This document shows, piece after piece, positions 8,344-26,608 of a stretch of 39,789 nt of DNA (positions are counted from its first letter, which is position 1; each line of letters starts with the position of its first letter). The position numbers and the translations under genes were made by a program. The notes under the pieces were generated by a model that saw nothing but the letters and a program-made list of their open reading frames with translations, did not search any database and was not told where the DNA came from. Source of the stretch: Streptosporangiales bacterium (GTDB lineage: Bacteria > Actinomycetota > Actinomycetes > Streptosporangiales > WHST01); contig WHTA01000053.1 of assembly GCA_009379825.1 (NCBI GenBank), positions 1 through 39,789 of the forward strand, read 5' to 3'.

Positions 8344-9084
8344 ATGGGCGGGCACGAGTGGGCGGACGGCGTGGTCCTCACTGCCTATGGGCCGCTGCAC
8401 TACCGGACCATCGGGCGGGGCCCGCTGCTGATCGCCTTGCACGGCATCCAGGGCACCGCGGGTGTGTGGACAGACGTGGGGAGCAGGCTCGCGATGCGTT
8501 ACACCGTGGTGGCCCCGAACCTGCGTGGCCGCAAGCCTTCCGTCGTCCCTACCGAGCGGCAGCGTTACTCGATGCGGTGTTTCGCGGCCGACGTGCGTGC
8601 CGTGATCGAGGCGGTCGGTGAGCCGGTCGCCCTCATCGGGTGGAGCATGGGAGTGCTGGTGACCCTCGAGTACCTGCGCCAGGGTTGGCCGATGCCACGT
8701 GCGCTCGTGCTGATAGGCGGTACCGCGCACCTGGCCGACATCCGATGGTTCGAGGGGCGGTCGGACGAGGAGGTGGTCTCGGAAGCGCGGGAGCGCGCCT
8801 TCCGGCTCGGCCTCACCGAGGCCGCCGACCCGTACGCCGTGGCCGCCAGCTGGTGGCATGCGAGCCGGGCCGACTACCGATCGACGTTGAGCTCCCTTCA
8901 GGTGCCGTGCCTACTGTTGCACGGCGACAACGACGACCAATGCCCGCCGGAACACGCCGAGGCGCTCGCTGCGCGACTACCCGACGCAGAGCTGCGGATG
9001 TGGCCAGGCGGCGGTCATAGCTTGATGGGCGCCGACCCGGCCGGTTTCGCAGCCGCTGTGGACACGTTCGTCGCGCGACACTAG
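8344..9084 (+). CDS. Alpha/beta-fold hydrolase
   Basis: A 246-residue hydrolase with a full catalytic triad: nucleophile S101 in GWSMG, an acid in LLHGDNDDQ (around 195-198) and H225 in GGGHS. The oxyanion region is LLIALHGIQG. Start ATG 8344 is preferred; the longer frame from 8218 runs into transposon remnant sequence. It converges with the GntR gene and the two stop codons share the palindrome CTAG at 9081-9084. By position it probably hydrolyses an ester, lactone or C-C bond in the pathway of the cluster to its right. Specific substrate cannot be told. Confidence 0.85.
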   Translation: MGGHEWADGVVLTAYGPLHYRTIGRGPLLIALHGIQGTAGVWTDVGSRLAMRYTVVAPNLRGRKPSVVPTERQRYSMRCFAADVRAVIEAVGEPVALIGWSMGVLVTLEYLRQGWPMPRALVLIGGTAHLADIRWFEGRSDEEVVSEARERAFRLGLTEAADPYAVAASWWHASRADYRSTLSSLQVPCLLLHGDNDDQCPPEHAEALAARLPDAELRMWPGGGHSLMGADPAGFAAAVDTFVARH

Positions 9085-9788
9085 GAGCCTACGACCGACA
9101 GGATCGCGCGCTCGAAACCCTTCACGTGATCGACCATCAGTGTGCGTGCCGCTTCGCCCTCGCCGGCCAGGATGTGCTCGAGGATGGGGACCAGCTCACT
9201 GACGTGGTCGGTGATCTCGGGTAGCCGATCGAGGAACACGTGCCAGATCCGGATGATCAGGTTGTAGTACTGGGTGAGCGTCGTCTCCAGGTAGGTGTTG
9301 CGTGCGCTCCGGTAGACCGCGCGGTGCACGGCGCTGTCGAAGTCGATCTGCTCGGTGGCGGCCGTGCCGCGTTTGTCGGCGTCCTCGAGCAGCTGACGTA
9401 GCTGTTCGCGCTGCGCGAGGTTCGCTCTCGCCGCGGCCAGCTCGGCTGCCACACCCTCCAGCTGGCAGCGCACCTCGGTGAGCACCGCCAGGTCGGTCAG
9501 GTGGACGTCGGTGGCGAAGACCCCCCGACGGGGATAGACGTTAACCAGCCACTCGGCTTCCAGCCTCTTGATGGCCTCGCGCACGGGGGTGCGTCCCACA
9601 CCGAGCTGCTTGGTCAGCTGGTCCTCGCGAACTGGTGCGCCCGGTGGGATGACCGCCCTGATCAGCAGGTCCCGAATTTCGGCATACGCGATCTCGTATA
9701 GCGACCGGCGCTCGTTCTCCGGCTGGGTTACCAGCTGCTCGGCGTTGACTCGCTGCGACACCTGTCTTATGGTACAGCCACGTCTCAT
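9081..9788 (-). CDS. GntR family (FadR/FCD) transcriptional regulator
   Basis: A winged-helix domain (EIAYAEIRDLLIRAVIPPGA, QLTKQLGVGRTPVREAIKRL) is followed by an all-helical FCD ligand-binding domain with the metal-site residues of the family (D-x3-H in IDFDSAVHRAVY, later H in ITDHVSELVPILEHILAGE). About 235 residues from ATG 9788; a GTG at 9761 is an alternative start nearer the HTH and would leave the 9761-9890 segment as promoter DNA. It faces away from the MFS-led operon and is the obvious candidate regulator of genes 9893-15691, probably responding to a carboxylic acid. Confidence 0.88.
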   Translation of the reverse strand: MRRGCTIRQVSQRVNAEQLVTQPENERRSLYEIAYAEIRDLLIRAVIPPGAPVREDQLTKQLGVGRTPVREAIKRLEAEWLVNVYPRRGVFATDVHLTDLAVLTEVRCQLEGVAAELAAARANLAQREQLRQLLEDADKRGTAATEQIDFDSAVHRAVYRSARNTYLETTLTQYYNLIIRIWHVFLDRLPEITDHVSELVPILEHILAGEGEAARTLMVDHVKGFERAILSVVGS

Positions 9789-9892
9789 ATATCAGTTACC
9801 GACGTTACGTCGACACCCTTGACGCGAAGGAGGCAGATCCACCGGGGGAGAACGGCCTGCTCAAGTCAACGATGACGATCGGAGCACCAGTC

Positions 9893-11290
9893 ATGGCGTA
9901 CCACGCCGGATCGGGTCCCTCACCTGGAGATGTCTCCCGCGTAGGCGACGCCGCCGCGAGGGACCTCACCGGGAGGCTGGAACGGCTCCCCCTCACCCGG
10001 TACCAGAAGCGGCTGTTCGTGATCATCGCGACCGCGTGGTTGTTCGACTCGATGGATCTCGCCGCGCTCACCTTCGTGCTCGCGCCGATCAGCTCCGAGT
10101 TCGCGCTGACGGCCTGGCAGGCGGGAATGCTGGCGAGCGGGAGCTTCGTCGGGATGGCCGTAGGTGCCAGCACCGCTGGTGCGCTCGCGGACCGTTTCGG
10201 GCGTCGACCCGTCTTCACCACCAGCATGCTCTGCTGGGGACTCGCTAGCTTCATCGCCGCCTTCTCCTGGGACTTCACCTCGCTGTTGATATGTCGGTTC
10301 TTCATCGGGTTCGGCATGGGTGCCGAGTTCCCCGTCGCGCAGTCGTTGCTGGCCGAGTTCGTCCCGTCGAAGGTCAGGGGGCGCTACCTCGGTTACCTCG
10401 AGGGTTTCTGGCCGCTTGGGTTCATCACCTGCGGCGCGGTCTCGCTTGTCCTCGTGCCGACGCTGGGTTGGCGTAGCCTCTACGTGCTCTTGGGAGTGCT
10501 CTCGCTGTATGCCCTGTACCTGCGACGTTCGATCCCCGAGTCGGTGCGCTGGTACGTCGTGAAGGGACGGCACGGCGATGCGTCGAGGACCCTCGACGAG
10601 ATCGAGGAAAAGGTCGCTACCGCGTACGGGCAGCCGCTACCGCCGGTAGAAGACGTTCCCGCGAGCGCCGAAGCCTCCGGTCGCGCGCCAGTGATGGAGC
10701 TGTTGGGCCGTTCGTATCGAGTCCGCACCGTCATGATCTGGACCCTCTGGTTCTGCGTCCTGCTCGGCTACTACGGGATCACCACGTGGCAGGCGAAGCT
10801 GCTCGCCGACGGCGGCATGACGGTGGCGAAGTCGATCGGGTTCGTCCTGGGGACGGCGCTGTGCGGCATCCCCGGCTTCTTGATCGCGTCGTGGCTGCTG
10901 GAACGCATCGGCCGGCGGCCGACGATCGTCGGGTTCGTGCTGCTCAGCGCGATCGCCGCCTACGCCTACGGCCAGATGGGCACAACCGTCGGGCTGGTCA
11001 TCGTCGGCTGCTTTATGCAGTTCTGCTTCTTCGGTATGTGGTCGGCGCTCTACGCGTACACCCCCGAGATCTTCGCCACCAGGTTCCGGGCGACGGGGTG
11101 CGGTACAGCCTCGACCTTCGGCCGCATCGGTGCCGTGGTCGGGCCTTTGATCATGCCGACCGTACTGGCCGCATGGGGGAACGGTGCCGCCTTCGCGGTT
11201 GCCGCCGTGTTCATGGCGATCGGGGCGGTGACGGTAGCCGTGCTCGGGCCGGAAACCAGGAACAAGAAACTCGAGGAGGTCTCTGCGTGA
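9893..11290 (+). CDS. MFS transporter, metabolite:H+ symporter type
   Basis: About 465 residues with twelve hydrophobic segments and the MFS signature between TM2 and TM3 (GALADRFGRRPVF) repeated in the second half (LLERIGRRPTIV). The motif WLFDSMDLAALTFVLAPI in TM1 is that of the aromatic-acid/metabolite symporter branch (AAHS/SP-like). Start ATG 9893 has GGAG 8 bp upstream; the ATG at 9872 lacks a close ribosome site. It is the first gene of the catabolic operon and its TGA overlaps the next GTG. It probably imports the organic acid substrate of the pathway. Confidence 0.85.
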   Translation: MAYHAGSGPSPGDVSRVGDAAARDLTGRLERLPLTRYQKRLFVIIATAWLFDSMDLAALTFVLAPISSEFALTAWQAGMLASGSFVGMAVGASTAGALADRFGRRPVFTTSMLCWGLASFIAAFSWDFTSLLICRFFIGFGMGAEFPVAQSLLAEFVPSKVRGRYLGYLEGFWPLGFITCGAVSLVLVPTLGWRSLYVLLGVLSLYALYLRRSIPESVRWYVVKGRHGDASRTLDEIEEKVATAYGQPLPPVEDVPASAEASGRAPVMELLGRSYRVRTVMIWTLWFCVLLGYYGITTWQAKLLADGGMTVAKSIGFVLGTALCGIPGFLIASWLLERIGRRPTIVGFVLLSAIAAYAYGQMGTTVGLVIVGCFMQFCFFGMWSALYAYTPEIFATRFRATGCGTASTFGRIGAVVGPLIMPTVLAAWGNGAAFAVAAVFMAIGAVTVAVLGPETRNKKLEEVSA

Positions 11291-12453
11291 CGCGGGACGT
11301 CGTCGTGGTGGGTGGCGGGGTTGCGGCTCACCGGTGCGCCCTGGAGCTGCGCCGCCTCGGCCATGACGGCACGGTCACCGTGATCAGCGGAGAGCGACAC
11401 CCACCCTACGACCGCACCTTCCTGTCGAAGGACATGCTGGTCGAGGACGTCGACCTGGTGCCTCTGGCGCCGCGATCGGAGTACACCGACCAGGGCATCG
11501 AGCTGCTGCTCGACGTGACGGCAGTCGCGTTGGACGCCGATGCCCGACGAGTCCAGCTCAGTGACGACACCGCGAGACGCTACGACAGCCTGGTGCTGTG
11601 CGTCGGCGGCCGACCGGTCCTGCCGCCTGCCCTGGATGCCCCGGGCGTGGCAGTGATGCGCGAGGCCACCCACCTGGATCGGCTGCGGGCGATCCTCGCC
11701 CGCGGTGGCCAACTCGTGGTGATCGGTGGGGGCTTCATCGGTGGTGAGGTGGCCAGTGCCGCGGTAACGCGCGGGCTCGACGTGACGCTCGTCGAGCAGG
11801 CCGGTGCTCCGCTCGAGGCGATGCTCGGTGCCGAGGTAGGCACGCGAGTAGCCGCCCTGCACCGCGAGCGCGGCGTCAAGGTAGTGACCGGCGTCGGAGC
11901 GAGGGCGGTCAGCGCGAGCCAGTCCGGCTACCGAGTCGATCTCGATGACGGGACCACGTTGTCCGCCGACGCCGTGGTCGTCGGGGTCGGCATGGCCCCA
12001 GCAACCGACTGGCTGACGGGCTCGGGTCTCGAGCTCGACCACGGCATCGTCACCGACGCCAGCTGTCGTACCTCGGTGGACTCGGTGTTCGCCGCCGGCG
12101 ACTGCGCGCGTTGGTGGCATCCTGCCTACGAGAGTCTGTGCCGGGTCGAGCACTGGGACACGGCCGGGCGCCACGGCACTGCAGTGGCCAAGACAGTGCT
12201 CGGCTCGGCCGAACCTTTCATGCCACTGCCGTTCGTCTGGTCCGATCAGCATGGCGTGAAGCTCCAGTGGGCTGGTCGGGCGGCTGGTTGGGATGACGTG
12301 CGAGTCGAAGGTGACGACCCGGCACGGTTCGTAGCTCGGTACTACCGGTCGGGGCAGCTGATCGGTGTGTTCGTATCCGGCCAGCCCCGCGAGTTCGCGA
12401 AGGCTCGCAAGGAGCTCGCGGCGTCGATGTGTCCGCCCGACCAGGGGAGGTAA
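11287..12453 (+). CDS. FAD-dependent ferredoxin reductase
   Basis: A 388-residue NAD(P)H:ferredoxin (rubredoxin) reductase of the type serving P450s and Rieske oxygenases. Two Rossmann motifs are present: FAD at VVVVGGGVAAHRCALELR and NAD(P) at LVVIGGGFIGGEVASAAV with an acidic E in LVEQ (suggesting NADH), and the FAD-closing motif SVFAAGDCA. The C-terminal Reductase_C domain (YRSGQLIGVF) is present. The GTG start overlaps the MFS stop (GTGA). It should pass electrons to the ferredoxin encoded 6 bp downstream. The longer frame from 10786 is a shadow of the transporter gene. Confidence 0.92.
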   Translation: MTRDVVVVGGGVAAHRCALELRRLGHDGTVTVISGERHPPYDRTFLSKDMLVEDVDLVPLAPRSEYTDQGIELLLDVTAVALDADARRVQLSDDTARRYDSLVLCVGGRPVLPPALDAPGVAVMREATHLDRLRAILARGGQLVVIGGGFIGGEVASAAVTRGLDVTLVEQAGAPLEAMLGAEVGTRVAALHRERGVKVVTGVGARAVSASQSGYRVDLDDGTTLSADAVVVGVGMAPATDWLTGSGLELDHGIVTDASCRTSVDSVFAAGDCARWWHPAYESLCRVEHWDTAGRHGTAVAKTVLGSAEPFMPLPFVWSDQHGVKLQWAGRAAGWDDVRVEGDDPARFVARYYRSGQLIGVFVSGQPREFAKARKELAASMCPPDQGR

Positions 12454-12459
12454 TGGACG

Positions 12460-12657
12460 TTGGCCATCACTGTCGACATCGACCGGGAGGTGTGCATCGG
12501 CTCGGGTAACTGCGTGCACATCTCCGAGGGCAGCATCGAGCTCGACGACGACGGTGTCGCCACCGTCGTCGACGCCGAGCGCGCCACGATCGACCAGCTC
12601 AGGCGGGCGGCTCGGTCCTGCCCCACCGCCGCGATCACCATCGACGGCGAGCAGTGA
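12460..12657 (+). CDS. 3-Cys ferredoxin, probably [3Fe-4S]
   Basis: A 65-residue acidic ferredoxin. Three cysteines, C12 and C18 in CIGSGNC and C54 in SCPTAAI, fit the actinobacterial [3Fe-4S] type in which the second cysteine of the 4Fe motif is replaced (here by S15). Such proteins deliver single electrons to monooxygenases. Start TTG 12460 follows AGGGGAGG at ideal spacing; an ATG at 12453 is in another frame. Its neighbours, a ferredoxin reductase and a Rieske protein, make an electron-transfer role in this operon very likely. Confidence 0.9.
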   Translation: MAITVDIDREVCIGSGNCVHISEGSIELDDDGVATVVDAERATIDQLRRAARSCPTAAITIDGEQ

Positions 12658-12679
12658 GAACGGGAGGAGTACCACAACG

Positions 12680-13831
12680 ATGACGCAACTAGAGACACGT
12701 CAACGCCCGAGCTCGGCCGCGGCCTCCGAATCTCTCGAGGATGTCCTCATCGTGGACACCGACGTGCATGTCCACGAGTCGCCTGGCGAGCTCGCGCCGT
12801 ACGCCGACATGCCGTGGCGGGTCGCGCTGGAGCACATCAAGGACAACCGGGAGAGCTACCTGGACATCCCGAGCTTCTCCCCGGGCGTCTCCGACGGCAG
12901 CTACCAGGCAAAGTGGCCCACGGCCCACGAGGGCGCCCGGATGGTGTGGACGCAGGAGCAGATGCGACTCGAGCTCGACCAGCTCAACGTCGACCTGGGT
13001 CTGCTGTTCCCCGACCACCTGTTGAAGCTACCCGTGCTGACCCAGGTGGATTACGCGACGGCCATCGCGCGTGCGTACAACCGTTGGCTTGCCGAACACT
13101 GGGCATCGCAAGCGAAGGGGCTGCTCGGGTTGATCGTGGTGGCCAACCATGACCCGGAGGACGCTGCGCGAGAGATCTACCGCTATGCCGACAACCCTGA
13201 CTTCGCCGGCGCCTACCTCCCGTGCGCCGGCCTCGACATCCTGTGGGGCAACCGGAAGTACGACCCGATCTACCGGGCGGCACAGGACACGGGGACGCCG
13301 CTGCTGCTGCACAGCGTCACGGTGACCCATCCGGTGTTCCCCTTCAACAACCACGCCTTCGACACCGAGCTGGCCCGGCACGCGACGAGCCACACGTTCT
13401 CGATCATGTCCAATCTTGTCGACCTGGTGACCCGAGGGACGTTCGTGAGGTTCCCAGAGGTCCGGTTCGCCGTCTCAGAGGCAGGCGTGTCCTGGATGCC
13501 GTGGCTGATGCTGCGGTTGAACAAGGAGTACATGGAACGGCGCCGCGATGTGCCGTTCCTCAAGCATCCGCCGAGCCATTACCTCAAGCAGGTGTACGTG
13601 TGCACCCAACCGATCGAGGAACCGGAGAACCTCCAAGACCTGGTGACCTTGATCGACTTGTTCGACGGCGAGGATCGGACGATGTTCGCCTCGGACTGGC
13701 CGCACCACGACTTCGACCATCCGATGAAGCTGGATCAGGTGCCGCTGTCCGAAGACGCCCGACGCAAGATCTTCGGCGAGAACGCGATGCGGTACCTAGG
13801 CATCGACGCGACAGGGAAGAAGCTGCGCTAG
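12680..13831 (+). CDS. Amidohydrolase-fold metalloenzyme (possible TIM-barrel oxygenase)
   Basis: A 383-residue member of the Amidohydro_2 group. Likely metal ligands are H30 and H32 in IVDTDVHVHE, His in PLLLHSVTVTH, further His in RHATSHTFS, E in VRFAVSEAGVSWMPW and D339 in MFASDWPHHDFDHP. The SD-P-H-x-DFD motif and the MRLELDQLNVDLGLLFPD segment mark an uncharacterised branch rather than classic hydrolases or the decarboxylases of the same fold. PtmU3 from platensimycin biosynthesis showed that a TIM-barrel group of this general appearance contains nonheme diiron monooxygenases. The gene sits between a ferredoxin and a Rieske protein with no other oxygenase nearby, so an oxidative role is inferred. 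A hydrolase or decarboxylase role cannot be excluded. ATG 12680 has GGGAGGAG upstream. Confidence 0.8.
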   Translation: MTQLETRQRPSSAAASESLEDVLIVDTDVHVHESPGELAPYADMPWRVALEHIKDNRESYLDIPSFSPGVSDGSYQAKWPTAHEGARMVWTQEQMRLELDQLNVDLGLLFPDHLLKLPVLTQVDYATAIARAYNRWLAEHWASQAKGLLGLIVVANHDPEDAAREIYRYADNPDFAGAYLPCAGLDILWGNRKYDPIYRAAQDTGTPLLLHSVTVTHPVFPFNNHAFDTELARHATSHTFSIMSNLVDLVTRGTFVRFPEVRFAVSEAGVSWMPWLMLRLNKEYMERRRDVPFLKHPPSHYLKQVYVCTQPIEEPENLQDLVTLIDLFDGEDRTMFASDWPHHDFDHPMKLDQVPLSEDARRKIFGENAMRYLGIDATGKKLR

Positions 13832-13853
13832 TGGGTCAGTTGAAGGAGGGGAC

Positions 13854-14309
13854 GTGACGGACAGCGTCATTGAATCGAGGAATGCGCGCGACACCCTCGT
13901 GCGTAAGTCGGCAGAAGGATTTCGCGTCGCGACGGAGCTCGAACCGGAGGACGGCAGGAAGCGGTACCGAGCCGGAGCACTGGCCGACTTTCCCGAAGGG
14001 CATCACGAGGTCGTGGTGGTGGGTGCGCGGCAGATCGGCGTGTTCAACATCAAAGGCACGCTGTATGCCCTGCCCAACATCTGCCCGCATCAGACCGGGC
14101 CCGTGTGTGAGGCGAAGCGGGTGACCGGGACGTTGACGGCCGACGGCGACCACAAACCGCAGTGGGTGTACGACAACGAGGTCGTGCAGTGTCCCTGGCA
14201 TGGGCTGGAGTACCACGTCCCCACGGGCCAGTGCCTGGCCTACGAGCACATCAAGATCCGCCGCTACCGGGTCGAGGTATCCGGTGACGACGTGATCCTC
14301 CGGATGTGA
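13854..14309 (+). CDS. Small Rieske [2Fe-2S] protein
   Basis: A 151-residue protein with a Rieske cluster motif: C77-P-H79 and C113-P-W-H116. The two halves are 33 residues apart, about double the usual 15-17, the extra part being KRVTGTLTADGDHKPQ and neighbours. There is no catalytic START-like domain, so it is an electron carrier or regulatory subunit and not an oxygenase alpha subunit. GTG 13854 follows AAGGAGGG. Together with the upstream reductase and ferredoxin it would complete an electron chain toward the amidohydrolase-fold enzyme. Confidence 0.88.
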   Translation: MTDSVIESRNARDTLVRKSAEGFRVATELEPEDGRKRYRAGALADFPEGHHEVVVVGARQIGVFNIKGTLYALPNICPHQTGPVCEAKRVTGTLTADGDHKPQWVYDNEVVQCPWHGLEYHVPTGQCLAYEHIKIRRYRVEVSGDDVILRM

Positions 14310-14321
14310 CGGGAGGACCTG

Positions 14322-14570
14322 GTGACGGAACGCATATCCCGGCAGGTCGACGGCCCGCTCGCGGTGCGCGAGGAGGAGACCGCCTACCTGGTCGTGCTCG
14401 AAAGTGATGAGACCGACTGGCTCGTCCGGTTCGACAAGGCCGACGACTTCGAGGCCGAGGAATGGGCCGAGCACATGGTCCGGACGTACAACGAACGCTT
14501 GCTGTCCGAGGACGACGAGTTCTATCGCATCACCGCCCGGCCACCCGAGATTCGCCCTGGGGCGCGTTGA
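14322..14570 (+). CDS. Conserved-looking 82-aa acidic protein of unknown function
   Basis: An 82-residue acidic protein (ETAYLVVLESDETDWLVRFD, then a helix-rich EAEEWAEHMVRTYNERLLSE) with no cysteines and no membrane segment. I do not recognise its family. It begins with GTG 14322 behind GGGAGG, 12 bp after the Rieske gene and 14 bp before the dehydrogenase, so it is part of the operon. Its size and charge would suit a small regulatory or coupling subunit of the oxygenase chain, but that is inference only. Confidence 0.75.
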   Translation: MTERISRQVDGPLAVREEETAYLVVLESDETDWLVRFDKADDFEAEEWAEHMVRTYNERLLSEDDEFYRITARPPEIRPGAR

Positions 14571-14584
14571 GAGGAGGGCGCAGG

Positions 14585-15691
14585 ATGCGTTGTCGCGCTG
14601 CGGTGTTGGCAGAACCGAACTCCAGGATGACCGTCGAGACCGTGCGGATCGACGAGCCAGGACCGGGCGAGGTACTGGTTCGTATGGGTGCCGCGAGCCT
14701 GTGCCATACGGACCTCGAGGTGATCGAGGGCAGCCTCGTCTACCCCATGCCCATCGTGCTCGGCCACGAGGGCGCGGGCACGATCGAGGCGGTCGGTGCA
14801 GGTGTCGACGAGAGTCGGCGTGGCCAGCGCGTCGTGCTGTCCTGGAACCCCCATTGCGGGCGGTGCTTCTACTGCGAGGACGGGCAGCCAATTCTCTGTG
14901 AACGTTACCGCGAGCTCGGTGGGCGAGCGGTCGCCTTCGACGGGACCCCGAAGCTCCACCATGGGAACAGCTCGGTGCACACGATGTTCTACATCGCTGC
15001 GTTCGCCGAATACGCCGTAGTCACCGCCGATTGCGCCGTCTCCATCCCGGATGAGATGCCGCTCGATCGGGCCTGTCTGCTCGGATGTGCGGTGCTCACC
15101 GGCGTCGGCGCGGCATCGCGCATCGGCCGCGTCACCTACGGTGAGACGGTCACCGTGGTCGGTTGCGGAGCCGTCGGGTTGAGCGCCGTGCACGGTGCGC
15201 GTCTCGCCGGCGCGGCACAGATCGTGGCGATCGACCGCGATCCGACCAGGCTGGCTGCGGCATCGCGTATGGGTGCGACCCAGACCGTCGATGCGGCGCA
15301 TCAAGACCCTGTCGAGGCGGTTCGCGAGATCACCGCCGGTCGAGGTGCCGACTGCGTCGTCGAATCGGCGGGCAACGAACCGGCCTTCCGTACGTCCGTG
15401 GAGGTTGCCAGGGTCGGTGGCCGGATCGTCTGGCTGGGCAAGGTCGGCGTCGACGAGGAAGTCGCGTTCCGCTGGGGATCGCTCATGGGCGAGAAGCAGA
15501 TCACTCGGTGCAGCTACGGGGGTGCCCGCGTGCAGGCCGACATTCCCGCCCTGGCCCGCTCCTACCTCGACGGCCGGCTGCTACTCGACGAGTTGCTCAC
15601 GGCCAGGATCACATTGGACGACATCAACCACGGCTTCGACGAGCTGCGCAGCGGCCGCGCCATCCGTTCCGTCGTCACCTTCGACTCGTGA
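14585..15691 (+). CDS. Zinc-dependent alcohol dehydrogenase (MDR family)
   Basis: A 368-residue medium-chain dehydrogenase. Catalytic zinc ligands C40 (SLCHTD) and H61-E62 (GHEGAG) and the structural zinc lobe C91, C94, C97, C105 (CGRCFYC, LC) are all present. The coenzyme motif is VVGCGAVGLSA with an acidic residue (VAIDRD) that favours NAD+. Overall layout is that of class III/aryl-alcohol or mycothiol-linked dehydrogenases. It closes the operon and would oxidise an alcohol formed by the upstream hydroxylating system. ATG 14585 follows GGAGGGCGCAGG. Confidence 0.92.
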   Translation: MRCRAAVLAEPNSRMTVETVRIDEPGPGEVLVRMGAASLCHTDLEVIEGSLVYPMPIVLGHEGAGTIEAVGAGVDESRRGQRVVLSWNPHCGRCFYCEDGQPILCERYRELGGRAVAFDGTPKLHHGNSSVHTMFYIAAFAEYAVVTADCAVSIPDEMPLDRACLLGCAVLTGVGAASRIGRVTYGETVTVVGCGAVGLSAVHGARLAGAAQIVAIDRDPTRLAAASRMGATQTVDAAHQDPVEAVREITAGRGADCVVESAGNEPAFRTSVEVARVGGRIVWLGKVGVDEEVAFRWGSLMGEKQITRCSYGGARVQADIPALARSYLDGRLLLDELLTARITLDDINHGFDELRSGRAIRSVVTFDS

Positions 15692-15934: not shown

Positions 15935-17436
15935 ATGATTCTGTTCGAGACCGATAAGAAGCCGCTGACCTACTTCCTCGACCAGATCGAGAACCGCGAT
16001 CTCGCTCTCCCGGACTTCCAGCGCAGTTTCGTCTGGGATCCGGGTGCCACCCGTGAGCTAGTGGTCTCCATCATCCGGGGCTTCCCGGCGGGCGCCCTGC
16101 TACTGATGCAAGGGGGCGCGCAGGTCTTCGCGCCGCGTGCGGTTGAGGAGGCACCTGAACTGAACGGGCCGCCGTCGTACCTCGTACTGGACGGCCAGCA
16201 GCGCATGAGTTCGCTTTACCAGGCGTTCTCCGGCAAGGGCAGCCATCGAGCGGGCCAAACGGTGAAAAGAACTGTCGAGCCAGGCGCGCGATCTCATGCT
16301 GCCCCTATCGAGCCTGCGATTGTTTGGCGACTGGCGCGACGAGGTTCTCGAGGAACGTGAGGTATTGACAGCGAGGTCAAGAAGCTCCGCAAGACCCTCA
16401 ATGAGGCATTCGCGCATGATGTGCAGCTGCGACAGATGTAGAAGGCCGCTCGCGAGACCCATCCGGTTCTGGCCGACTTCGACATCGACCCCTACTACAT
16501 CCTCCAAGTCGTTGCAGTCCGTGTGAAGGGTACGCCGAAGCGGTCATCTGTGCTCAATCTTGAGATCGACGAGATCACGGCCAACTGGGACGCGGCGGTC
16601 ACTGGCATGGCCGAGGGGCTTCGGCTGCTTCAAGACGAGTGCGGCGTTCTGACGCTCAAGTGGCTCGGCTGTACCACGATGCTCCTCACGTTGGCAGCGG
16701 TGCGGGACCGGGTGTCGAGAGCTGCTGGACCAGCGATCGGGCACCGTCGCGCGAAGCTGAAGCGCTGGTTCTGGTGCTCGGCGTTCGCCGGTGCCTACGA
16801 GAACGCGCCGAACACCGTCACAGAGCAGGACGTCGTCGCATTGCGGCGATGGTTAGACGGTGGTGAGGCTCCCGCTGTCGTAGCGGACTTCTCGTTCGAA
16901 GCTCGCTGGTGGCGAGGGGTTTCGTACCGCAACCGCGCTCTTTATCGGTCTACGATCGCGCTCACCATGCGTGGGACTCCGCTGGACTTCCACCAGGGGA
17001 GGAAGCTGACCAAGGCAGTCATCGACGGCGACAGTGTCGACGACCATCACATCTTCCCGCGAGGGTTTCTGGAGGACTCACGGCAGGCTGGACCGGTCGA
17101 CAGTGTCTTGAACCACACACTGATTGACAAGATCACCAACATTCGGATCGGCAAGAAGGCACCCAGTGTCTATATTCAGGATATGGCGACGGAGCTCGGT
17201 GAGAAGCTGGTGATGGAGATCCTGGAGAGCCATGGCTTGCCGGGCGACGTCAACGGCTCGCTGCGTAGCAACGACTTCGCAGCCTTCTCACCTGGCGGCT
17301 CACGCACCTAGCCGCACAGCTGGAAGCGGTGACGGGCGGCATGATCTCGCGCGACTCCGTCGTGGAACCTAGGCAAGCGGAGGACACTGCGGAGCAACGG
17401 TTTGCCGAGCTTGAGGGAAGTCACCCGGCGGACTAG
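15935..17436 (+). pseudogene. DUF262/DUF1524 protein (GmrSD-like), multiply broken
   Basis: GmrSD-type proteins are type IV restriction nucleases or related phage-defence NTPases. The DUF262 part is intact at first: FLDQIENRDLALPDFQRSFV and the signature LVLDGQQRMSSLYQ. After about 16255 the frame is lost; LPLSSLRLFGDWRDEVLEE appears in another frame, then EVKKLRKTLNEAFAHDVQLR with an in-frame TAG at 16439. The frame recovers (LADFDIDPYYILQVV) and carries the DUF1524 HNH-like DHHIFPRGF and NHTLIDKITNIRIG. A last frameshift near 17285 leads to LTWRLTHLAAQLEAVTG and the true end at 17436. At least four lesions make it non-functional. Confidence 0.85.
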
Positions 17437-19494: not shown

Positions 19495-19734
19495 ATGGCG
19501 ACATGCAGCGTATGCGGGAACGACTACGACAAGGCGTTCACCGTCCAGATGTGGGACGGAACCAGCCGGACCTACGACAGCGTCGAGTGCGCGGCGCACG
19601 TACTAGCGCCGAGGTGCGGGCACTGTGAGTGCCAGATCCTCGGACACGGCGTGGAGGTACACGGTCAGGTCTACTGCTGTCGACACTGTGCCGACGCGAT
19701 GGTTGGCAGCTCGCCGATCACCGACAGAGCGTGA
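19495..19734 (+). CDS. Cys-rich zinc-binding protein, prokaryotic metallothionein-like
   Basis: A 79-residue protein with Cys pairs C4/C7 (CSVC), C32, C41/C44/C46 (CGHCEC) and C61/C62/C65 (CCRHC), plus His in GHGVEVHG. This pattern matches the small actinobacterial 'MATCxVCGNDYDKAF' family that is often annotated as prokaryotic metallothionein or a zinc-ribbon protein. It probably binds zinc; a DNA- or protein-binding zinc ribbon is the alternative. An AGGAGGAGG stretch lies upstream of ATG 19495. Confidence 0.75.
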   Translation: MATCSVCGNDYDKAFTVQMWDGTSRTYDSVECAAHVLAPRCGHCECQILGHGVEVHGQVYCCRHCADAMVGSSPITDRA

Positions 19735-19774
19735 CGCCGGCGCCTGTGGCATCGTCTCCGGGTCGCCTGCGGTG

Positions 19775-21270
19775 CTATTCGACGTCTATCGTGATGGTTA
19801 CGCAGCTCTGCTGCAGGACGGCTGGACCCGCTAGCGCGAAGCCGGTGGGTAGGGGATCGCGCACGTAGACGCGGGCGTCGGTCCAACCGGTGCCGAGCTC
19901 GTACACTCGCGCTTCGTCGAAGTGTTCGGGGTCCAGCGCGGGTAGGTACTCGGCTACCACCTGTTCGAGAGCGTCCGCATCGAGTTCGCCGCTGGGACAG
20001 GGGACGAGCACCTCGTATGTCTGGCCGCGGTACCGCATGTCGCACCAGCGTTCGAAGACGACGTCCGCCCGACAGCAGACCGAGCGCACACAACGTTCCC
20101 GGGTGTGGGGGCACGACGACCGTGCGGATTCCGAGGCTGTGGGCGAGCTCGCGCGCGTGCAGGGCACCGGCACCGCCGAAGGCGGCGAGCGCGAAGTCAC
20201 GTGGGTCATCGCCGCGTTCCCGCAGCGCCACACGGATCGCGCCGTCCATCGACGCGTCGACGACGGTCAACACACCTGCCGCTGCATCGTCGGTTGCGAG
20301 GCCGAGCGGCTTAGCCAACCGGTCGGCAATCGCCTTCTCCGCGAGGTCGGCACGCAGGTCGAGTCGCCCGGCCAGGCTGTGTGGGCGACAACCGGCCGAG
20401 GGCTACGTGCGCGTCGGTGACGGTGGGTTCCTCGCCACCCTGCCCGTACGCCGCAGGGCCCGGCTCGGACCCTGCACTGTGCGGGCCGACCCGCAGTGCA
20501 CCGCCTTCAACATAGGCGACCGAGGCGCCGCCAGCGCCGATCGCGTCGACCTTCGATGCTAGGCAGGCGGACTGGGAGGTCGCCGATCGACAGCTCGGTC
20601 GCGACGCGCGGCGCGAAGTCCGTGACCAACGAGATGTCGGCGCTGGTACCTCCGATGTCGAGACCGATGAGGTTCGGCAGCTCGAACGCACGTGCGAGCC
20701 GCTCGAGCGCGACGACGCCGGCCACGGGCACCGACAGGGCGAGCGTGACCGGTCGCAGCCTGGCGAGCGCAGGTGTCTGCATCCCGCCATTCGACTGACT
20801 GACGAACACGTCGTAGGTAGCGGTCGATGAGCGGCATCAGGGCAGCGTTGAGGGTCGTCGTCGCGGACCGCTCGTACTCTCTGACCTCGCGCATCAGCGA
20901 TGCGGACGTGCATACGCGCGACAGCGCCAACTTTTGCCGAACGCAGTCGCGCGAGCAATTCGTCGATCACCCCAGTATCGAGCGCATCGACCAGGTTCGT
21001 CCGATCTCCAGGACGTCGCCGAACCCCTCTGTCGCAACGACCGCTGTGGGTGCGAGCCCGCGCTCGATGATGGCGTCGGTTGCAAGTGTCGTGCCGTGGA
21101 GCACGAGCCGGATCCTTGCCGGGGAGATGCCGCGAAGCACCGCAGCAGCGGGATCGCTGCGCGACGACGAGATCATCGAGCAGTGGGCATCGGGGTGTCG
21201 AGGTCGACGGCGACGATGTCGGTGAACGTGCCGCCGATGCCCACACCCACGCACCAACCGCTGCTTATCG
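19775..21270 (-). pseudogene. Hydantoinase/oxoprolinase subunit A, multiply frameshifted
   Basis: Homologous blocks of HyuA appear in order in different minus-strand frames: [19 protein letters not shown] (nucleotide-binding loop), [20 protein letters not shown] with [76 protein letters not shown] with [35 protein letters not shown], and the C-terminal MRYRGQTYEVLVPCPSG ending at 19775. At least five frame changes are needed. It is a dead copy of the same family as the intact gene at 24578, in opposite orientation. Confidence 0.85.
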
Positions 21271-21320
21271 CTTCGCCTCCACCAGGTCCAGTCCGTAGTC
21301 GTCGGCCGATCGCCCCCGTG

Positions 21321-21850
21321 TCACGCCAGCCGCAGGTCGGCGGCGGCGATGACCGGATCACGTAGTCGCGGATCCCCTAACCCACCGCCGCCCTGAGCTC
21401 GCACGGTCGGCACATCACCGGCCCGCGGGCGCAGCACGACGACCTTGCCGGCTATACGAACGAGGTCTTCTCCCGGTCGTTCAAGCAGCAACTCACCCGG
21501 TGCGCCCTCGCCGCCACCGAGCAGTCCAGGCACGGCGAACTGCATCCGGTCGAACTGCGCCGAGAACTCACAGTCGGCGAGAACGACAAGGCGTCGCTCC
21601 AGCCCGGGGCCGCCCTGGAAGAGGCGATCGGGTCCATCCTGTCCCGGTCTGCCGCCCCAGCCGCCCACACCGATCTCGAACAGGACGCGGGCAGCGCCCG
21701 CCCCATTCCGACGACTGAGGATGGTGACGTTGGAGTTCCCGTAATGGTGTGCGACGACCGACCCACAACCGGTGCAGGGTGCCTGGGGTTCAGCACGCAA
21801 CCCTCGGGCGCGATGACTTCGATCGGTTCGTAATTGCCGCAGATCGGACT
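21321..21850 (-). pseudogene. Hydantoinase/oxoprolinase subunit B, C-terminal remnant
   Basis: Minus-strand frames contain YEPIEVIAPEGCVLNPRHPA and PVVGRSS, then after an indel HYGNSNVTILSRRNGAGAAR, VLFEIGVGGWGGRPGQDG, and finally VPTVRAQGGGGLGDPRLRDP to a stop at 21321. These are the last third of HyuB (N-methylhydantoinase B / oxoprolinase beta). The first two thirds are missing upstream of about 21850, where a PucR-like fragment abuts. With the dead hyuA it forms a degraded hyuBA pair. Confidence 0.8.
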
Positions 21851-22372
21851 GCGGGTCACGCCCAGCTGCTGAACGACTTGCTCACCGGCGAGCACCCGGC
21901 TGGGGAGGCCGGCGCACTCGCAGTTCGACTCCGTCTGGACGAAGGTGCTGCGCACCGCATCATCACGGTGACGCCGACCCGTGGATCCACCCCTGACACC
22001 GCAGCACGACGTCGCACCCAAGCCGTAACGGCTGCGATGCGCCGCTTCAGCGACATCAGGGGGTGGAAGATACTGGCAGATACCGCCGAACCCAACGATG
22101 TCCAGATCGGGATCAGCCGCACCTGCACGCCTGCCTCCGACTACCGGCGACGGTACCGTGAGCTGAGGAAGTGTCTGGACCTCGCCAACCGCGCCAACCC
22201 GGCCGTCCGTACGGTGGTCGCCGAACAGTGGCATGTCCACACCATGCTGATGCATACCGCCGACGATGACGACGTCAGGGACCGCGCTCACCAACTACTC
22301 GACCTCGTACTCGCCGAGGGTGACGACCGCCTGCTGATCTCGCGAGCGACTCACCGGACTCGACCTCCGTGA
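21850..22372 (+). pseudogene. PucR/CdaR-type regulator, internal fragment
   Basis: On the plus strand, HAQLLNDLLTGEHPAGEAGA with LAVRLRLDEGAAHRIITVTP, then VQIGISRTCTPASDYRRRYR, ELRKCLDLANRANPAVRTVV and DRAHQLLDLVLAEGDDRLL, follow the order of the GGDEF-like middle domain of PucR/CdaR regulators. The N-terminal domain is missing (the frame begins in hyuB debris) and the C-terminal HTH is absent after 22372. PucR proteins often control purine or hydantoin catabolism, so it may have been the regulator of the dead hyu locus. The assignment rests on pattern only. Confidence 0.45.
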
Positions 22373-22395
22373 CCTGCAAAACCTGGTAGAGCTAC

Positions 22396-22421
22396 AGCTC
22401 GCCCCGATTCACCGGCGAGCT
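22396..22421 (-). terminator. Hairpin downstream of iclR-type gene
   Basis: Perfect 8-bp arms AGCTCGCC / GGCGAGCT with a 10-nt loop, 16 bp past the stop of the IclR gene on the minus strand. Only a short TTTT follows about 13 nt later, so termination strength is uncertain. Confidence 0.4.
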
Positions 22422-22436
22422 TCGTCGGGACTCGCC

Positions 22437-23204
22437 CTAGTCGCTTTGACTGAGCTGCGGTTGCGCCGAGACCGCGCGCGAGATGCTCCGCGCTGTCGCG
22501 ACCAACGCTGGAAGCACGGATTGCACGACGGGTTCGTCGAGTCCGTAGGTGATCGAGAGCGCGGCTATGACGTTGTCCGCACGATCCCGGATCGCTGTCG
22601 CCACGCCGCCTCCGAGCGGATTGATGGTCCCGTCCGCGACCGCGTACCGCCGTGCTCGCACCTCCGCAAGGATGGTGCGTAGCTCTGCCGATGACGTCAC
22701 CGTTCGGTCGGTGTAGCGTCGCAACGGACGGGCCAGGATCGACTCCTGGAACTCGGGATCCGAGTAGGCCAGCATCAACAGCCCGGGCGATGTCGCGTGT
22801 ATCGGAAGCCGGCCGCCGATCTGACTGATGTTCGGCACCTCGTTGTGGGAAGCCAACCGTTCGAGGACGAGCACCTCACCGGCGGCCAGGATGGACAGCG
22901 AGGTGTGCTGCCTGACAGCGACCTGCAGGTCCTCCATGAACGGCATCGCGACCTCGCGCAGCCGTAGGACGTGCGAAGACCGCACACCGATCTCCCACAG
23001 GCTGGTGCCGATCCGGTAGACCTTCTGCTCGTTTCGCTCCAGGAGCCCTAGATCGACGAGCTCCCTCGTGATCCGGTACGCGGTAGGTAGTGGTAGGTCC
23101 GCGGCCCAAGCGATCTCCGTGAGGCTCATCTCGACACGGGCCGGGTCGAAGAGTTTCAGTATTCGGAAGGCCCGGTGCAGGACCGAGTTGCCCTTGCCAG
23201 TCAC
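22437..23204 (-). CDS. IclR family transcriptional regulator
   Basis: A 255-residue regulator: N-terminal winged helix (VLHRAFRILKLFDPARVEMS, LTEIAWAADLPLPTAYRITR) and C-terminal GAF-like effector domain (SLSILAAGEVLVLERLAS, IHATSPGLLMLAYSD, GVATAIRDRADNVIAALSIT). GTG 23204 is chosen because GAGGAGG lies just upstream and the family HTH starts a few residues later; the ATG at 23231 has no ribosome site. It is divergent from the saccharopine-dehydrogenase-like/hyuAB operon and is its likely regulator. Confidence 0.88.
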   Translation of the reverse strand: MTGKGNSVLHRAFRILKLFDPARVEMSLTEIAWAADLPLPTAYRITRELVDLGLLERNEQKVYRIGTSLWEIGVRSSHVLRLREVAMPFMEDLQVAVRQHTSLSILAAGEVLVLERLASHNEVPNISQIGGRLPIHATSPGLLMLAYSDPEFQESILARPLRRYTDRTVTSSAELRTILAEVRARRYAVADGTINPLGGGVATAIRDRADNVIAALSITYGLDEPVVQSVLPALVATARSISRAVSAQPQLSQSD

Positions 23205-23333
23205 CCCGCCTCCTCGATCACAGCACGTCAATCACCAAACACCCATGGTCAGCTAGCCGCCAGACGCGTCATGGCGATCATCGCACCAGTCCGGGTCGGC
23301 GAGCCAGGGTTCGGCGGCGAACTCTGGCTCGGG

Positions 23334-23352
23334 ACTTTCGCTCAGAGAAAGT
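23334..23352. promoter_or_regulatory. Inverted repeat, candidate IclR operator
   Basis: ACTTTC-GCTCAGA-GAAAGT is a perfect 6-bp inverted repeat with 7-bp spacing in the 255-bp gap between the IclR gene and the divergent operon. A further GAAAGTC half-site lies at 23441-23447, close to the ATG of the first structural gene. Confidence 0.45.
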
Positions 23353-23459
23353 TGCGTTGATCGACCGCCGGTAGGTCCAGACACTCCTTTCTCAACGGAT
23401 ACGGCGCGAAACGTCGCCGCCTACAGGTCAGTCGCCAACGGAAAGTCGAATCGAATCGA

Positions 23460-24581
23460 ATGAGTAGCATCCTCGTTCTCGGTGGTACAGGCGAGATGGG
23501 GTCGGTAGCGGTCACCGACCTCGCGCAGCGCACCGACCACGACATCGCCATCGCGGATCCCCGGGTGGAGGACGCCAGAGCTCTGTTGCGGCGCCTCGGC
23601 CGACCCGAGCAGGTCTACCGGCTCGACGTTTCGGACGACACACGCCTGGTAGAGGTAATGGCCGGCCACGACCTCGTCCTCAACACGACCCTGATGCGCT
23701 ACACACTGGCAGTGACGGATGCCGCGATCGCCGCCCGAGTCCACCTGGTCGACCTGGGTTCGTACTACGACGACACACTGGCCCAGCTGGAACGCAATGC
23801 CGCAGCAGAGGAGGCCGGCTGCCGCATCGTCCCTGGTTGCGGCGTAGCGCCCGGCCTAACGAACGTCCTCGCCGCGCTCGGTGCCGGCGACCTTGATCAC
23901 GTGACCGGAGTGCGGATGTACTCGTACATCACGCACCCGATGTACACCTCCCCCGGGATCGTCGTCACGCGCTTCGACGCGAGCACAGGCCGCTCGGTGA
24001 TTCTTCGCGACGGTTCGCTGGTCGAACGACCGTCGTTCGGTGACCACGAGACGATCGAGTTCGCGGAACCCTATGGCGCGCAACAGGTACACCTTGTACC
24101 GCATCCCGAGGTGGTCACCCTGCCGCGCTACCTCGACGGGGTACGCGATGTCGTGTTCAAGGTCGGTTACCCTGCCGAGGAGAACAACCGCATCGCGACC
24201 CTGTTGTCGCTCGGCTTCGACAGCGACGAGCCCTTCGACGTGGACGGCCACTCCATCTCGCCGCGCCGCTTCGCAGCTGCCTATATCGGGCGCAGGGGAC
24301 TGGCACCCACCGAACGCAGCGCCAACGTGAAGAAGGTCCTCGTCGACGGCGTGGCGGGCGGACTGGACACCACGGTCCGCTACGACTTCGCCGTCGAGAA
24401 CAGTGGTCGTTCCGCCTCGGCGACCATCACAGGGACGGTCGCCGCCATCGCCGCGGACATGGTGACCGCGCCCAGCGCTCCGGGCGTCCGTGCACCGGAG
24501 TCCGCACTGGACCCCAACGACTTCCTTGACCGGCTGGCCGAGCGCGGTCTCGAGGTGTCGGCGTCGAAGGCCACCGAGTGA
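23460..24581 (+). CDS. Saccharopine dehydrogenase-like NAD(P) oxidoreductase
   Basis: A 373-residue protein with an N-terminal Rossmann domain (SILVLGGTGEMGSVAVTDLA, glycine motif GGTGEMG) and the conserved HLVDLGSYYDD and GCRIVPGCGVAPGLTNVLAA segments typical of the saccharopine dehydrogenase/homospermidine-synthase-like family. Such proteins reduce or oxidise amino-acid-like imines. ATG 23460 follows GGAAAG and a TCGAA triple repeat. Its stop overlaps the GTG of hyuA (GTGA). In this operon it may act on an amino-acid product released by ring opening. Confidence 0.85.
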   Translation: MSSILVLGGTGEMGSVAVTDLAQRTDHDIAIADPRVEDARALLRRLGRPEQVYRLDVSDDTRLVEVMAGHDLVLNTTLMRYTLAVTDAAIAARVHLVDLGSYYDDTLAQLERNAAAEEAGCRIVPGCGVAPGLTNVLAALGAGDLDHVTGVRMYSYITHPMYTSPGIVVTRFDASTGRSVILRDGSLVERPSFGDHETIEFAEPYGAQQVHLVPHPEVVTLPRYLDGVRDVVFKVGYPAEENNRIATLLSLGFDSDEPFDVDGHSISPRRFAAAYIGRRGLAPTERSANVKKVLVDGVAGGLDTTVRYDFAVENSGRSASATITGTVAAIAADMVTAPSAPGVRAPESALDPNDFLDRLAERGLEVSASKATE

Positions 24582-26608
24582 GCGCGCTGGTCGGCGTCGA
24601 CGTCGGTGGCACGTTTACCGACGTCGTCCTGCTCGAGGACGGTGCGGTCCGGACGTCGAAGGTCCCTTCGGACGTGGTCGACCAGTCCAACGGTTTTCTC
24701 GGCGGACTGGAAGCAGCACAGGTGGACCACGGGTCGGTGCAGGCGGTCGTCCACGGCACGACGGTGGCCACCAATGCGCTGATCGAGCGGAAAGGGGCTC
24801 GTGTCGGCATCATCACGACGGCGGGCTTCCGCGACATACTCGAACTGCGCCGGCGTGACCGCGTCACGATCTACGGGCTCGGCGGTACGTTCAGCCCGAT
24901 CGTGCCGCGGGATCTGCGGCTGGAGGTCAAGGAACGGATGGCCGCGGACGGCACCGTGGTCACACCGCTCGACACCGGACAGGTCAGGGACGCCGGTGCC
25001 CAGCTGGTCGAAGCCGAGGTCGACGCGGTCGCGGTCATCTTCCTGCACTCGTACCTGAACCCGGAACACGAACGGGCCGCGGCTGCCGAGCTCGGTCGGC
25101 ACTGGCCCGATCTCACGGTCATCACCTCGTCAGAGGTCCTTCCGGTCTACGGCGAGTTCGAGCGCACGAGCACCACGGCGATTTCTGCCTACGTCCAACC
25201 GCTCATGGCGAGCTACCTGAGCCGGCTGAAGGACGGGCTCCGCGTCCGTGGCTATGAACGCGACCTCCTTGTCGTACAGTCCAACGGTGGCCTGGCGGAC
25301 TCGTCCGTCGCCGGGCGGCTCGCGGCCAACACGGTCCTTTCCGGTCCGGCTGCCGGCGTGGTCGCTGCCAACCACCTCGGGCAGGCCGCTGGCTTCTCGA
25401 ACGTCATCACCGCCGACATGGGCGGGACGAGCCTCGACACGGCAATCATCAAGGGCGGGCGGCTGCTCCTCAAGGCCCAGACAACGATCGACTTCGGTAT
25501 GCCACTCGCCCTGCCGATGCTCGACATCCAGACGGTCGGTGCGGGCGGCGGAAGCATCGCACGGGTCGGTGACGACCGGATCCTCACCGTGGGGCCCGAC
25601 AGCGCCGGCGCCCGACCGGGTCCCGCATGCTACGGACACGGCGGGACTCACCCGACCATCACCGATGCCAACCTGATCCTCGGCAGGCTGGGCGAAGCCA
25701 GTCCTCTCGGCTCGGAGAGCTCCGTGCGCCTCCACCTCGATCTGGCGGTCGCCGCCGTACGTACGAAGGTCGCGGAGCCACTCGGCCTGTCGGTCGTAGA
25801 CGCTGCGCTCGCGATCGTCGAGGTCGCCAACCTCAACACGGCAGGTGCGATTCGACTCCAGAGCGTCGAGAAGGGACTCGACCCTCGGGAGTTCGCGCTC
25901 GTGTCGTTCGGCGGCGCCGGCCCTCTCCATGCGGCCGCGCTGGTCGAAGAGCTCCAGATGCGAGCCGCCGTCGTCCCACTCTTCCCCGGGATCACCTCGG
26001 CGTTCGGGTGCATCATGTCCGACTTCAGGCACGACCTCAGCGAGACCGTGAACGTCGACCTGGACGACCTCGACGAGAAGGCGATCGCCGCTGTCTACGA
26101 CCGGCACCGAGTAGCCGGTACGGATCTGCTCGGGCAGGAAGGCATCAGTCCCACCATGGTGACCGTCACCTACGGCGCCGATCTCCTCTACGACGGGCAG
26201 ACGTACAACCTCAGCGTGTCATTGCCGAGCCACCAGCCGACACGGAACCAGTTTCGCGAGGCATTCGACGCGGCCTACTCAGCTCGGTTCGGATACACGC
26301 TGCAGAACTCGGTTCGGATCATGAACCTGACGACCACAGCGTTCGGGGCGAGGCCCCGGCTGGACATGGGCGCGATCGCGTCAGCAATTCTGCCGCCAGA
26401 CGGGAGCGTCAAGGCGCGCTCCTACCGGGAAGTACACCTGCGAAGCGGGGCACGCGAAGTACCGGTGTACGCCCGCTTCGACATCCCCATCGGAGCGACC
26501 TTCCCCGGGCCGGCCGTCGTCGACCAGGGAGACTCCACCCTCTTCCTCGACGAGGACCACCTCGCTGTCGTCGACACCCTTGGGAGCATCGTTGTCACTA
26601 GGAACTGA
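24578..26608 (+). CDS. Hydantoinase/oxoprolinase family protein, subunit A
   Basis: A 676-residue HyuA-type ATP-dependent subunit (N-methylhydantoinase A, 5-oxoprolinase alpha, acetone/acetophenone carboxylase relatives). Visible motifs: phosphate-binding GVDVGGTFTDVVLL at residues 6-19, HGTTVATNALIERKGARVGI, YVQPLMASYLSRL, VQSNGGLADSS, ADMGGTSLDTAIIKGG, GAGGGSIA, GPDSAGARPGPACYGHGG and FALVSFGGAGPLHAAALVEE. The family activates a cyclic amide or ketone carbonyl with ATP. It is coupled to the gene before it and overlaps hyuB. The exact substrate cannot be told from sequence. Confidence 0.92.
   Translation: MSALVGVDVGGTFTDVVLLEDGAVRTSKVPSDVVDQSNGFLGGLEAAQVDHGSVQAVVHGTTVATNALIERKGARVGIITTAGFRDILELRRRDRVTIYGLGGTFSPIVPRDLRLEVKERMAADGTVVTPLDTGQVRDAGAQLVEAEVDAVAVIFLHSYLNPEHERAAAAELGRHWPDLTVITSSEVLPVYGEFERTSTTAISAYVQPLMASYLSRLKDGLRVRGYERDLLVVQSNGGLADSSVAGRLAANTVLSGPAAGVVAANHLGQAAGFSNVITADMGGTSLDTAIIKGGRLLLKAQTTIDFGMPLALPMLDIQTVGAGGGSIARVGDDRILTVGPDSAGARPGPACYGHGGTHPTITDANLILGRLGEASPLGSESSVRLHLDLAVAAVRTKVAEPLGLSVVDAALAIVEVANLNTAGAIRLQSVEKGLDPREFALVSFGGAGPLHAAALVEELQMRAAVVPLFPGITSAFGCIMSDFRHDLSETVNVDLDDLDEKAIAAVYDRHRVAGTDLLGQEGISPTMVTVTYGADLLYDGQTYNLSVSLPSHQPTRNQFREAFDAAYSARFGYTLQNSVRIMNLTTTAFGARPRLDMGAIASAILPPDGSVKARSYREVHLRSGAREVPVYARFDIPIGATFPGPAVVDQGDSTLFLDEDHLAVVDTLGSIVVTRN

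Follow-up and report, generated by a model that had tools for sequence, protein, structure and literature searches.

A redox operon in a Streptosporangiales bacterium

We analyzed contig WHTA01000053.1 (39,789 nucleotides) from the genome of a Streptosporangiales bacterium (GCA_009379825.1). We will refer to this whole stretch as the window. Genes were called as open reading frames (ORFs), and families were assigned by searching against Pfam and NCBIfam. Six consecutive genes on the + strand (11287-15691) encode a ferredoxin reductase, a three-Cys ferredoxin, a TIM-barrel protein from PF04909 (an amidohydrolase-like family), a small Rieske protein, an 82-amino-acid (82-aa) protein, and an alcohol dehydrogenase (Table 1). 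The gaps between these genes are 6, 22, 22, 12, and 14 bp. An earlier note on this DNA had described the same run of genes, with gaps of at most 22 bp, and its positions and family labels are borne out by the ORFs and by both databases. But the note took the operon to comprise these six genes, and it missed two neighbors. One is an MFS transporter gene, whose stop overlaps the start of the reductase by 4 bp; the other is a GntR/FCD gene that is transcribed divergently. The MFS gene is probably the first gene of the operon, and the GntR/FCD gene is probably its regulator. When we searched the interval between these two genes for an operator palindrome, we found just a 9-nt near-palindrome at the start of the GntR gene. 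The best NCBIfam match for the transporter was the aromatic acid/H+ symport family, but this match (279 bits) fell below the cut-off of 419 bits, so it gives only a weak hint that the substrate is an organic acid.

Table 1. Genes of the operon and degenerate paralogs at related loci. Locus numbers (L003 and so on) refer to other genomes.
Feature	Position	Strand	Start	Evidence and remarks
GntR/FCD regulator	9081-9788	-		FCD 3e-20, GntR 2e-16; divergent; also adjoins the operon in L003 and L004
MFS transporter	9872-11290	+		MFS_1 6e-49; kept in L003 and L004
FAD-dependent NAD(P)H ferredoxin reductase, HcaD-like	11287-12453	+	GTG	Pyr_redox_2 1e-59, Reductase_C 1e-12
Three-Cys single-cluster ferredoxin	12460-12657	+	TTG	Fer4_15 2e-11; motif CIGSGNC...CP
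PF04909 TIM-barrel protein, predicted catalytic component	12680-13831	+	ATG	Amidohydro_2 (PF04909) 1e-31
Small Rieske [2Fe-2S] ferredoxin	13854-14309	+	GTG	PF00355 5e-12
82-aa protein	14322-14570	+	GTG	No Pfam or NCBIfam family
Zn-dependent medium-chain alcohol dehydrogenase	14585-15691	+	ATG	ADH_N 3e-27, ADH_zinc_N 2e-25
Degenerate paralog, L048	2186-3436
Degenerate paralog, L060	11205-12374
Degenerate paralog, L064	10613-11782
Degenerate paralog, L067	8666-9850
Degenerate paralog, L069	6015-7160
Degenerate paralog, L065	251-1435

The PF04909 protein is a likely dinuclear oxygenase

The earlier note had proposed that the PF04909 protein is the terminal oxygenase of the system and resembles PtmU3. 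We agree. It is quite likely, judging from its sequence and its predicted structure, that this protein is the terminal O2-dependent monooxygenase of a multicomponent catabolic system of the amidohydrolase-related dinuclear oxygenases (AROs). The proposal is supported by the metal ligands, by the nearest known structures, by co-occurrence with a Rieske gene across phyla, and by the absence of the decarboxylase signature.

In a search against the sequences in the PDB, the five best matches were all AROs: 8sm7, 8sm8, SfbO (8sm6), AibH2, and 8sm9. (The PDB titles of 8SM7-9 use the name “TruffO”; the title of 8sm7 reads G. y4, that is, Geobacillus Y412MC10.) The E values for these five ranged from 5e-52 to 2e-34, while the top decarboxylase had E = 6e-15. 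PtmU3 (PDB 6OMP) matched with E = 4e-12 and 20% identity.

In AibH2, which is a Mn/Fe monooxygenase, the two metals are bound by D25, H27, H211, E265, D337, and H340 (PMC7782822). All six ligands align to identical residues in the window's protein (D28, H30, H211, E267, D339, and H342), and the main-line relatives that we found share this set of ligands (DHHEDH). At the same columns, five decarboxylase-like paralogs from the same genome have DHHHD(F/Y). Because the window's protein has DHHEDH instead, its predicted active site does not match the decarboxylase or Zn hydrolase type, and we rejected those assignments.

We also compared an AlphaFold2 model of the protein (mean predicted local distance difference test score, or pLDDT, of 85.7) to known structures. 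AROs scored best: the Z scores were 41.3 for 8sm7, 39.4 for SfbO, 37.6 for the AibH2 chain of AibH1H2, and 32.8 for PtmU3, as compared to 32.1 or less for characterized decarboxylases. The model superposes on 8sm7 over 331 residues at 2.0 Å.

Alternatively, the PF04909 protein could be a mononuclear Zn/Mn decarboxylase or hydrolase (of the ACMSD, LigW, or gamma-resorcylate decarboxylase type), with the redox genes serving an oxygenase that is encoded elsewhere, such as a cytochrome P450. The decarboxylases do share both Pfam family and fold with this protein. Also, an FAD-dependent reductase with a three-Cys ferredoxin is a typical pair of partners for a P450, and the genome has nine P450 matches, all of them on other contigs. 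(Within the operon, Pfam searches of the proteins found neither a P450 nor any other oxygenase gene.) But the strand-6 HGG and the SD-x-P-F/Y motif of decarboxylases, which the decarboxylase-like paralogs have as HGG and SDYP(F/Y), are replaced by SEAG (containing E267) and SDWPH (containing H342). Furthermore, the top PDB matches are all AROs, and the Rieske gene that is conserved beside the ARO gene is not a P450 partner. We consider this alternative very unlikely.

A Rieske protein is the conserved partner

The window's genome contains 20 PF04909 matches, and seven of these proteins, at six loci, have the DHHEDH ligands. At all six loci, a Rieske gene is next door. None of the 13 other matches has a Rieske gene within about 1.5 kb. 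Of 78 related loci, which come from several phyla, 70 have a Rieske gene no more than 3 kb from the ARO gene. Three of the eight loci without one (L008, L024, and L052) are on contigs of about 4 kb, and the contig of L024 ends inside the ARO gene. The conservation in other genomes and the control within the same genome led us to reject chance or misannotation as explanations for the gene set. The Rieske protein itself has the canonical ligands, CPH (at 77) and CPWH (at 113), and it probably passes electrons directly to the ARO.

The expectation that the six genes would occur together elsewhere holds for the Rieske-ARO pair. The complete set is kept in just two loci, both from Pseudonocardiaceae (L003 and L004), where the ortholog of the dehydrogenase is on the opposite strand, beside the GntR gene. 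The order ferredoxin, ARO, Rieske, 82-aa is found again in these two loci (85-86% identity of the AROs) and in a metagenome-assembled genome (MAG) from Chloroflexi (L005; 70% identity). Among cultured bacteria, Qaidamihabitans albus carries an ARO with 85% identity. The ferredoxin gene is 45-70 bp upstream of the ARO gene in all three, but only the window, L003, and L004 have both the reductase and the ferredoxin before the ARO; in L005, the ferredoxin is alone, at the contig's end. In Paenibacillus abyssi (L016), the ARO gene is flanked by genes for a GntR/FCD regulator, a short-chain dehydrogenase (SDR), and a medium-chain dehydrogenase (MDR). The linkage of GntR, MFS, and dehydrogenase genes in L003 and L004, along with the flanking genes in L016, supports a catabolic sequence of oxidations.

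We also noticed that three Bradyrhizobium genomes (L058, L063, and L070) have AROs from the same clade, with an HcaD-like reductase 1.8-5.4 kb downstream. ARO-Rieske pairs of the window's clade are present in MAGs labeled as Thaumarchaeota/Nitrososphaerales (L062 and L065), which could reflect transfer or a binning error.

A clade with an altered second shell

In a maximum-likelihood tree, the window's ARO lies in a clade of 68 rows, which has 97 support by the Shimodaira-Hasegawa-like approximate likelihood ratio test (SH-aLRT) and includes none of the five solved AROs. (The tree was built with a quick search, SH-aLRT was the only measure of support, some of the branches are long, and PtmU3 was left out.) Those five group with four other ARO proteins from the window's genome, and the tree gives no support for placing the window's ARO as the sister of a solved ARO.

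Five residues (H238, N245, E286, W340, and H343) do not vary among the clade's 61 main-line members, and the clade has the second-shell motif SDWPHHDFDHP. All 11 of the other AROs that we compared have Trp or Phe at position 343 and Tyr at 340. In SfbO, R235 and W341 contact a sulfate in the active site (PMC10811679), and these residues align to H238 and H343 of the window's ARO. (We did not use Tyr280 of SfbO, as the reconstructed chain did not show Tyr at that number.) By this alignment, the pocket is predicted to differ from that of SfbO by two histidines, one of which is beside a metal ligand. A large clade of AROs without a solved member, and with an altered second shell, looks new.

Several points weigh against our proposal for the PF04909 protein. 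Its assignment as an ARO rests on computation, and both activity and metal content are predictions. By itself, the fold score barely sets PtmU3 apart from the decarboxylases; the ligands do so. Few ARO loci carry the reductase and the three-Cys ferredoxin, so the part of these proteins in the electron transfer chain is uncertain. And because the clade lacks a characterized member and has a second shell unlike that of SfbO, the reaction may differ.

Elsewhere in the window's genome, on contigs C19, C12, C92, C5, and C2 (L081, L083, L090, L094, and L096), are five more ARO-type loci, all of them with a Rieske neighbor. On C19, a tandem pair of ARO genes (77891-80063) encodes two proteins that both have all six ligands, in contrast to AibH1, which is mononuclear. 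Also, some Chloroflexi and Nitrososphaerales loci have a second, degenerate ARO paralog near the ARO (Table 1), with H211 changed to Gln and/or E267 changed to Asp (DHQEDH, DHQDDH, or DHHDDH). It is possible that these are non-catalytic subunits, akin to AibH1, that arose separately.

Proposed pathway

Given the chemistry of the family, we propose that an imported small molecule would be the substrate for catabolism. Electrons from NAD(P)H would enter at the FAD-dependent reductase and pass via the three-Cys ferredoxin (which probably has a 3Fe-4S cluster) and/or straight to the Rieske protein. The Rieske protein would then reduce a dinuclear Fe/Fe or Mn/Fe center in the ARO. This center would activate O2, and the substrate would be hydroxylated or oxidatively dealkylated. 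Finally, the Zn alcohol dehydrogenase would oxidize the alcohol or an aldehyde adduct. The earlier note's scheme, hydroxylation followed by oxidation by the dehydrogenase, is still an inference.

Another version of the last steps is that the ARO is an oxidative dealkylase and that the dehydrogenase acts on the released aldehyde, such as a formaldehyde-thiol adduct, instead of on a hydroxylated substrate. This has precedent, as SfbO is an ARO that acts on PIPES (piperazine-N,N'-bis(2-ethanesulfonic acid)) and dealkylates an amine (PMC10811679). Also, the best PDB match of the dehydrogenase is S-(hydroxymethyl)glutathione dehydrogenase (3e-68), and its second NCBIfam match is S-(hydroxymethyl)mycothiol dehydrogenase. 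However, ordinary alcohol dehydrogenases score nearly as well in the PDB, and all of the NCBIfam matches are below the curated cut-offs. (The best of these, to the N,N-dimethyl-4-nitrosoaniline-dependent alcohol dehydrogenases, TIGR03989, is at 314.3 bits with a cut-off of 440.) The residues that bind sulfate in SfbO are both histidines in the window's ARO, which also argues against this version. We think that dealkylation is on the unlikely side, though far from negligible.

A family of small proteins linked to AROs

The earlier note had left the 82-aa protein as a mere unknown. Instead, we regard it as the operon's most distinctive conserved part. We found 22 members of its family. L13, V24, D32, W33, F37, A45, W48, A49, and M52 are invariant in the 18 members that we aligned. 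The predicted structure is beta-beta-beta-alpha, with a pLDDT of about 90 over residues 11-60. We found no match to this protein in Pfam, NCBIfam, PDB sequences, or PDB folds: Foldseek with the model gave no hit to the PDB below E = 0.38, and profile searches of Pfam and the PDB returned only noise. On the basis of these comparisons, the protein appears to be the founder of an undescribed family.

Whole-genome scans identified the 82-aa gene in 19 of 38 genomes with an ARO, in one copy each. A further survey covered 1,190 genomes, drawn from the class to which the window belongs, the order that contains Paenibacillus abyssi, and the Chloroflexota. (A survey at the level of the window's family, which has three genomes, was uninformative.) The 82-aa family was confidently found in seven of these genomes, including the window's own, and was beside ARO and Rieske genes in each. 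One more match (L124) was weak (E = 1e-4), lacked ARO or Rieske neighbors, and is probably spurious.

For the 82-aa protein, we propose a structural, coupling, or regulatory role as a small accessory to this subclade of AROs; we slightly favor a coupling or docking partner. MmoB is the effector or coupling protein of soluble methane monooxygenase. More specifically, the 82-aa protein may be dedicated to a distinct subclass of AROs, whose second shell (H343 and H238) is unlike that of the solved AROs. It could act there as an effector or coupling protein like MmoB, or as a docking subunit for the Rieske protein, and control how electrons are transferred or O2 is activated at the dinuclear center of the TIM barrel. 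We put this forward tentatively, as an idea that is more doubtful than probable. We found no description of such a small component for AROs in the literature that we searched. Only Q122, L209, D376, and G379 of the ARO track the presence of the 82-aa protein, which are too few to make a case for an interface.

The 82-aa protein might instead have no part in the oxygenase and share only the operon with it, serving separately in catabolism or stability. The ARO can do without it, since the gene is missing from the other 19 genomes with an ARO, including Solirubrobacter soli (L010), whose ARO is 63% identical to the window's. Also, the alignment shows no metal- or nucleotide-binding motifs. On the other hand, each genome that has the gene has a single copy, and the linkage to ARO and/or Rieske genes extends over three phyla. 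On the ARO tree, the 82-aa gene has a clustered distribution (4 changes, as compared to 18.2 in shuffles). The linkage survives rearrangement: the gene is upstream of the ARO gene in L024, upstream of an MFS gene in L018, and past an intervening gene in L007. In the genome of L008, it adjoins a Rieske gene, with no ARO seen within 1.1 kb. A role outside the oxygenase is a serious possibility, if somewhat short of an even bet.

Comparison to known systems

The ARO class is already known: PtmU3, AibH1H2 (2021/2023), and SfbO (2024) have been published. The earlier note had independently reached a type of prediction that was already in print, and its description of the fold as unusual for an oxygenase was superseded. 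Its description of the Rieske protein as an extra carrier is also incorrect. A previous analysis identified 555 uncharacterized proteins with all six ligands and reported that a small Rieske gene co-occurs with about 90% of AibH2-like genes (PMC10401708), and SfbO was itself discovered by guilt-by-association with an adjacent Rieske gene (PMC10811679). This makes the Rieske protein the normal partner of an ARO, and it is the three-Cys ferredoxin that is the extra carrier.

By both sequence and fold, the nearest relatives are SfbO and the other AROs from PDB 8SM6-8SM9 (PMC10811679), which share PF04909, the six ligands, and a small Rieske neighbor with the window's system. However, they are only about 28-34% identical to the window's ARO and lie outside its clade. 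Where the window's ARO has W340, H343, and H238, they have Tyr, Trp or Phe, and variable residues, respectively. The text of the SfbO paper (PMC10811679) does not mention an 82-aa gene.

The 2-aminoisobutyrate monooxygenase of Rhodococcus, AibH1H2GF (PMC7782822, PMC10401708), resembles the window's system in its ligands, its Rieske protein (AibG), its permease and dehydrogenase, and in having an ARO as the terminal component. But the window's operon has only one PF04909 gene, without a second subunit like AibH1, and its reductase is an HcaD-type FAD protein, while AibF uses FMN and includes a 2Fe-2S domain (PMC7782822). The three-Cys ferredoxin and the 82-aa protein are extras relative to AibH1H2GF. 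PtmU3, the nonheme diiron hydroxylase from platensimycin biosynthesis, is also a dinuclear TIM-barrel protein that lacks a partner like AibH1, but it is more distant, and it is biosynthetic where the window's system appears to be catabolic. ACMSD and the 5-carboxyvanillate and gamma-resorcylate decarboxylases share the PF04909 fold, the first Asp-x-His, and the positions of H211 and D339. They differ in having HGG where the window's ARO has E267 and SDYPF/Y where it has H342, and they are not redox enzymes.

The window's reductase is similar to HcaD (its top NCBIfam match, at 253 bits, which is below the cut-off), and its Rieske protein is similar to HcaC/NirD. Because of these resemblances to the electron transfer chains of Rieske dioxygenases, electron entry is probably alike. 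But the operon lacks the alpha subunit of a Rieske oxygenase, and its terminal enzyme is the putative ARO. Entry of electrons via an HcaD-type flavoprotein and a three-Cys ferredoxin is probable for this ARO system, and it looks new. We also considered an enzyme of riboflavin catabolism (PMC12746152) as a relative, but it is a Rieske dioxygenase, not an ARO.

Other genes in the window

Reading by eye, we noticed hydantoinase A/B-like genes (24578-26608 and 26580-28301) as well as genes for a saccharopine-dehydrogenase-like protein and an IclR-like regulator (all within 19671-28301). Hydantoinase-A-like segments in different frames at 19671-21246 are possibly a broken remnant. Just downstream of the operon, at 15935-17311, two ORFs resemble a DUF262/GmrSD-type protein that has apparently been split by a change of frame.

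Implications

The AROs are the most recent addition to the dinuclear C-H hydroxylases, and few of them have been matched to a reaction. Our results point to a large branch of AROs that spans several phyla, has no solved member among those found, and has a fixed difference beside the metal site. The operon would be a convenient and complete set for reconstitution, as it has a transporter, a regulator, a reductase, two carriers, an oxygenase, and a dehydrogenase in one run. If the 82-aa protein proves to be necessary, then it would be the first accessory component of an ARO other than AibH1.

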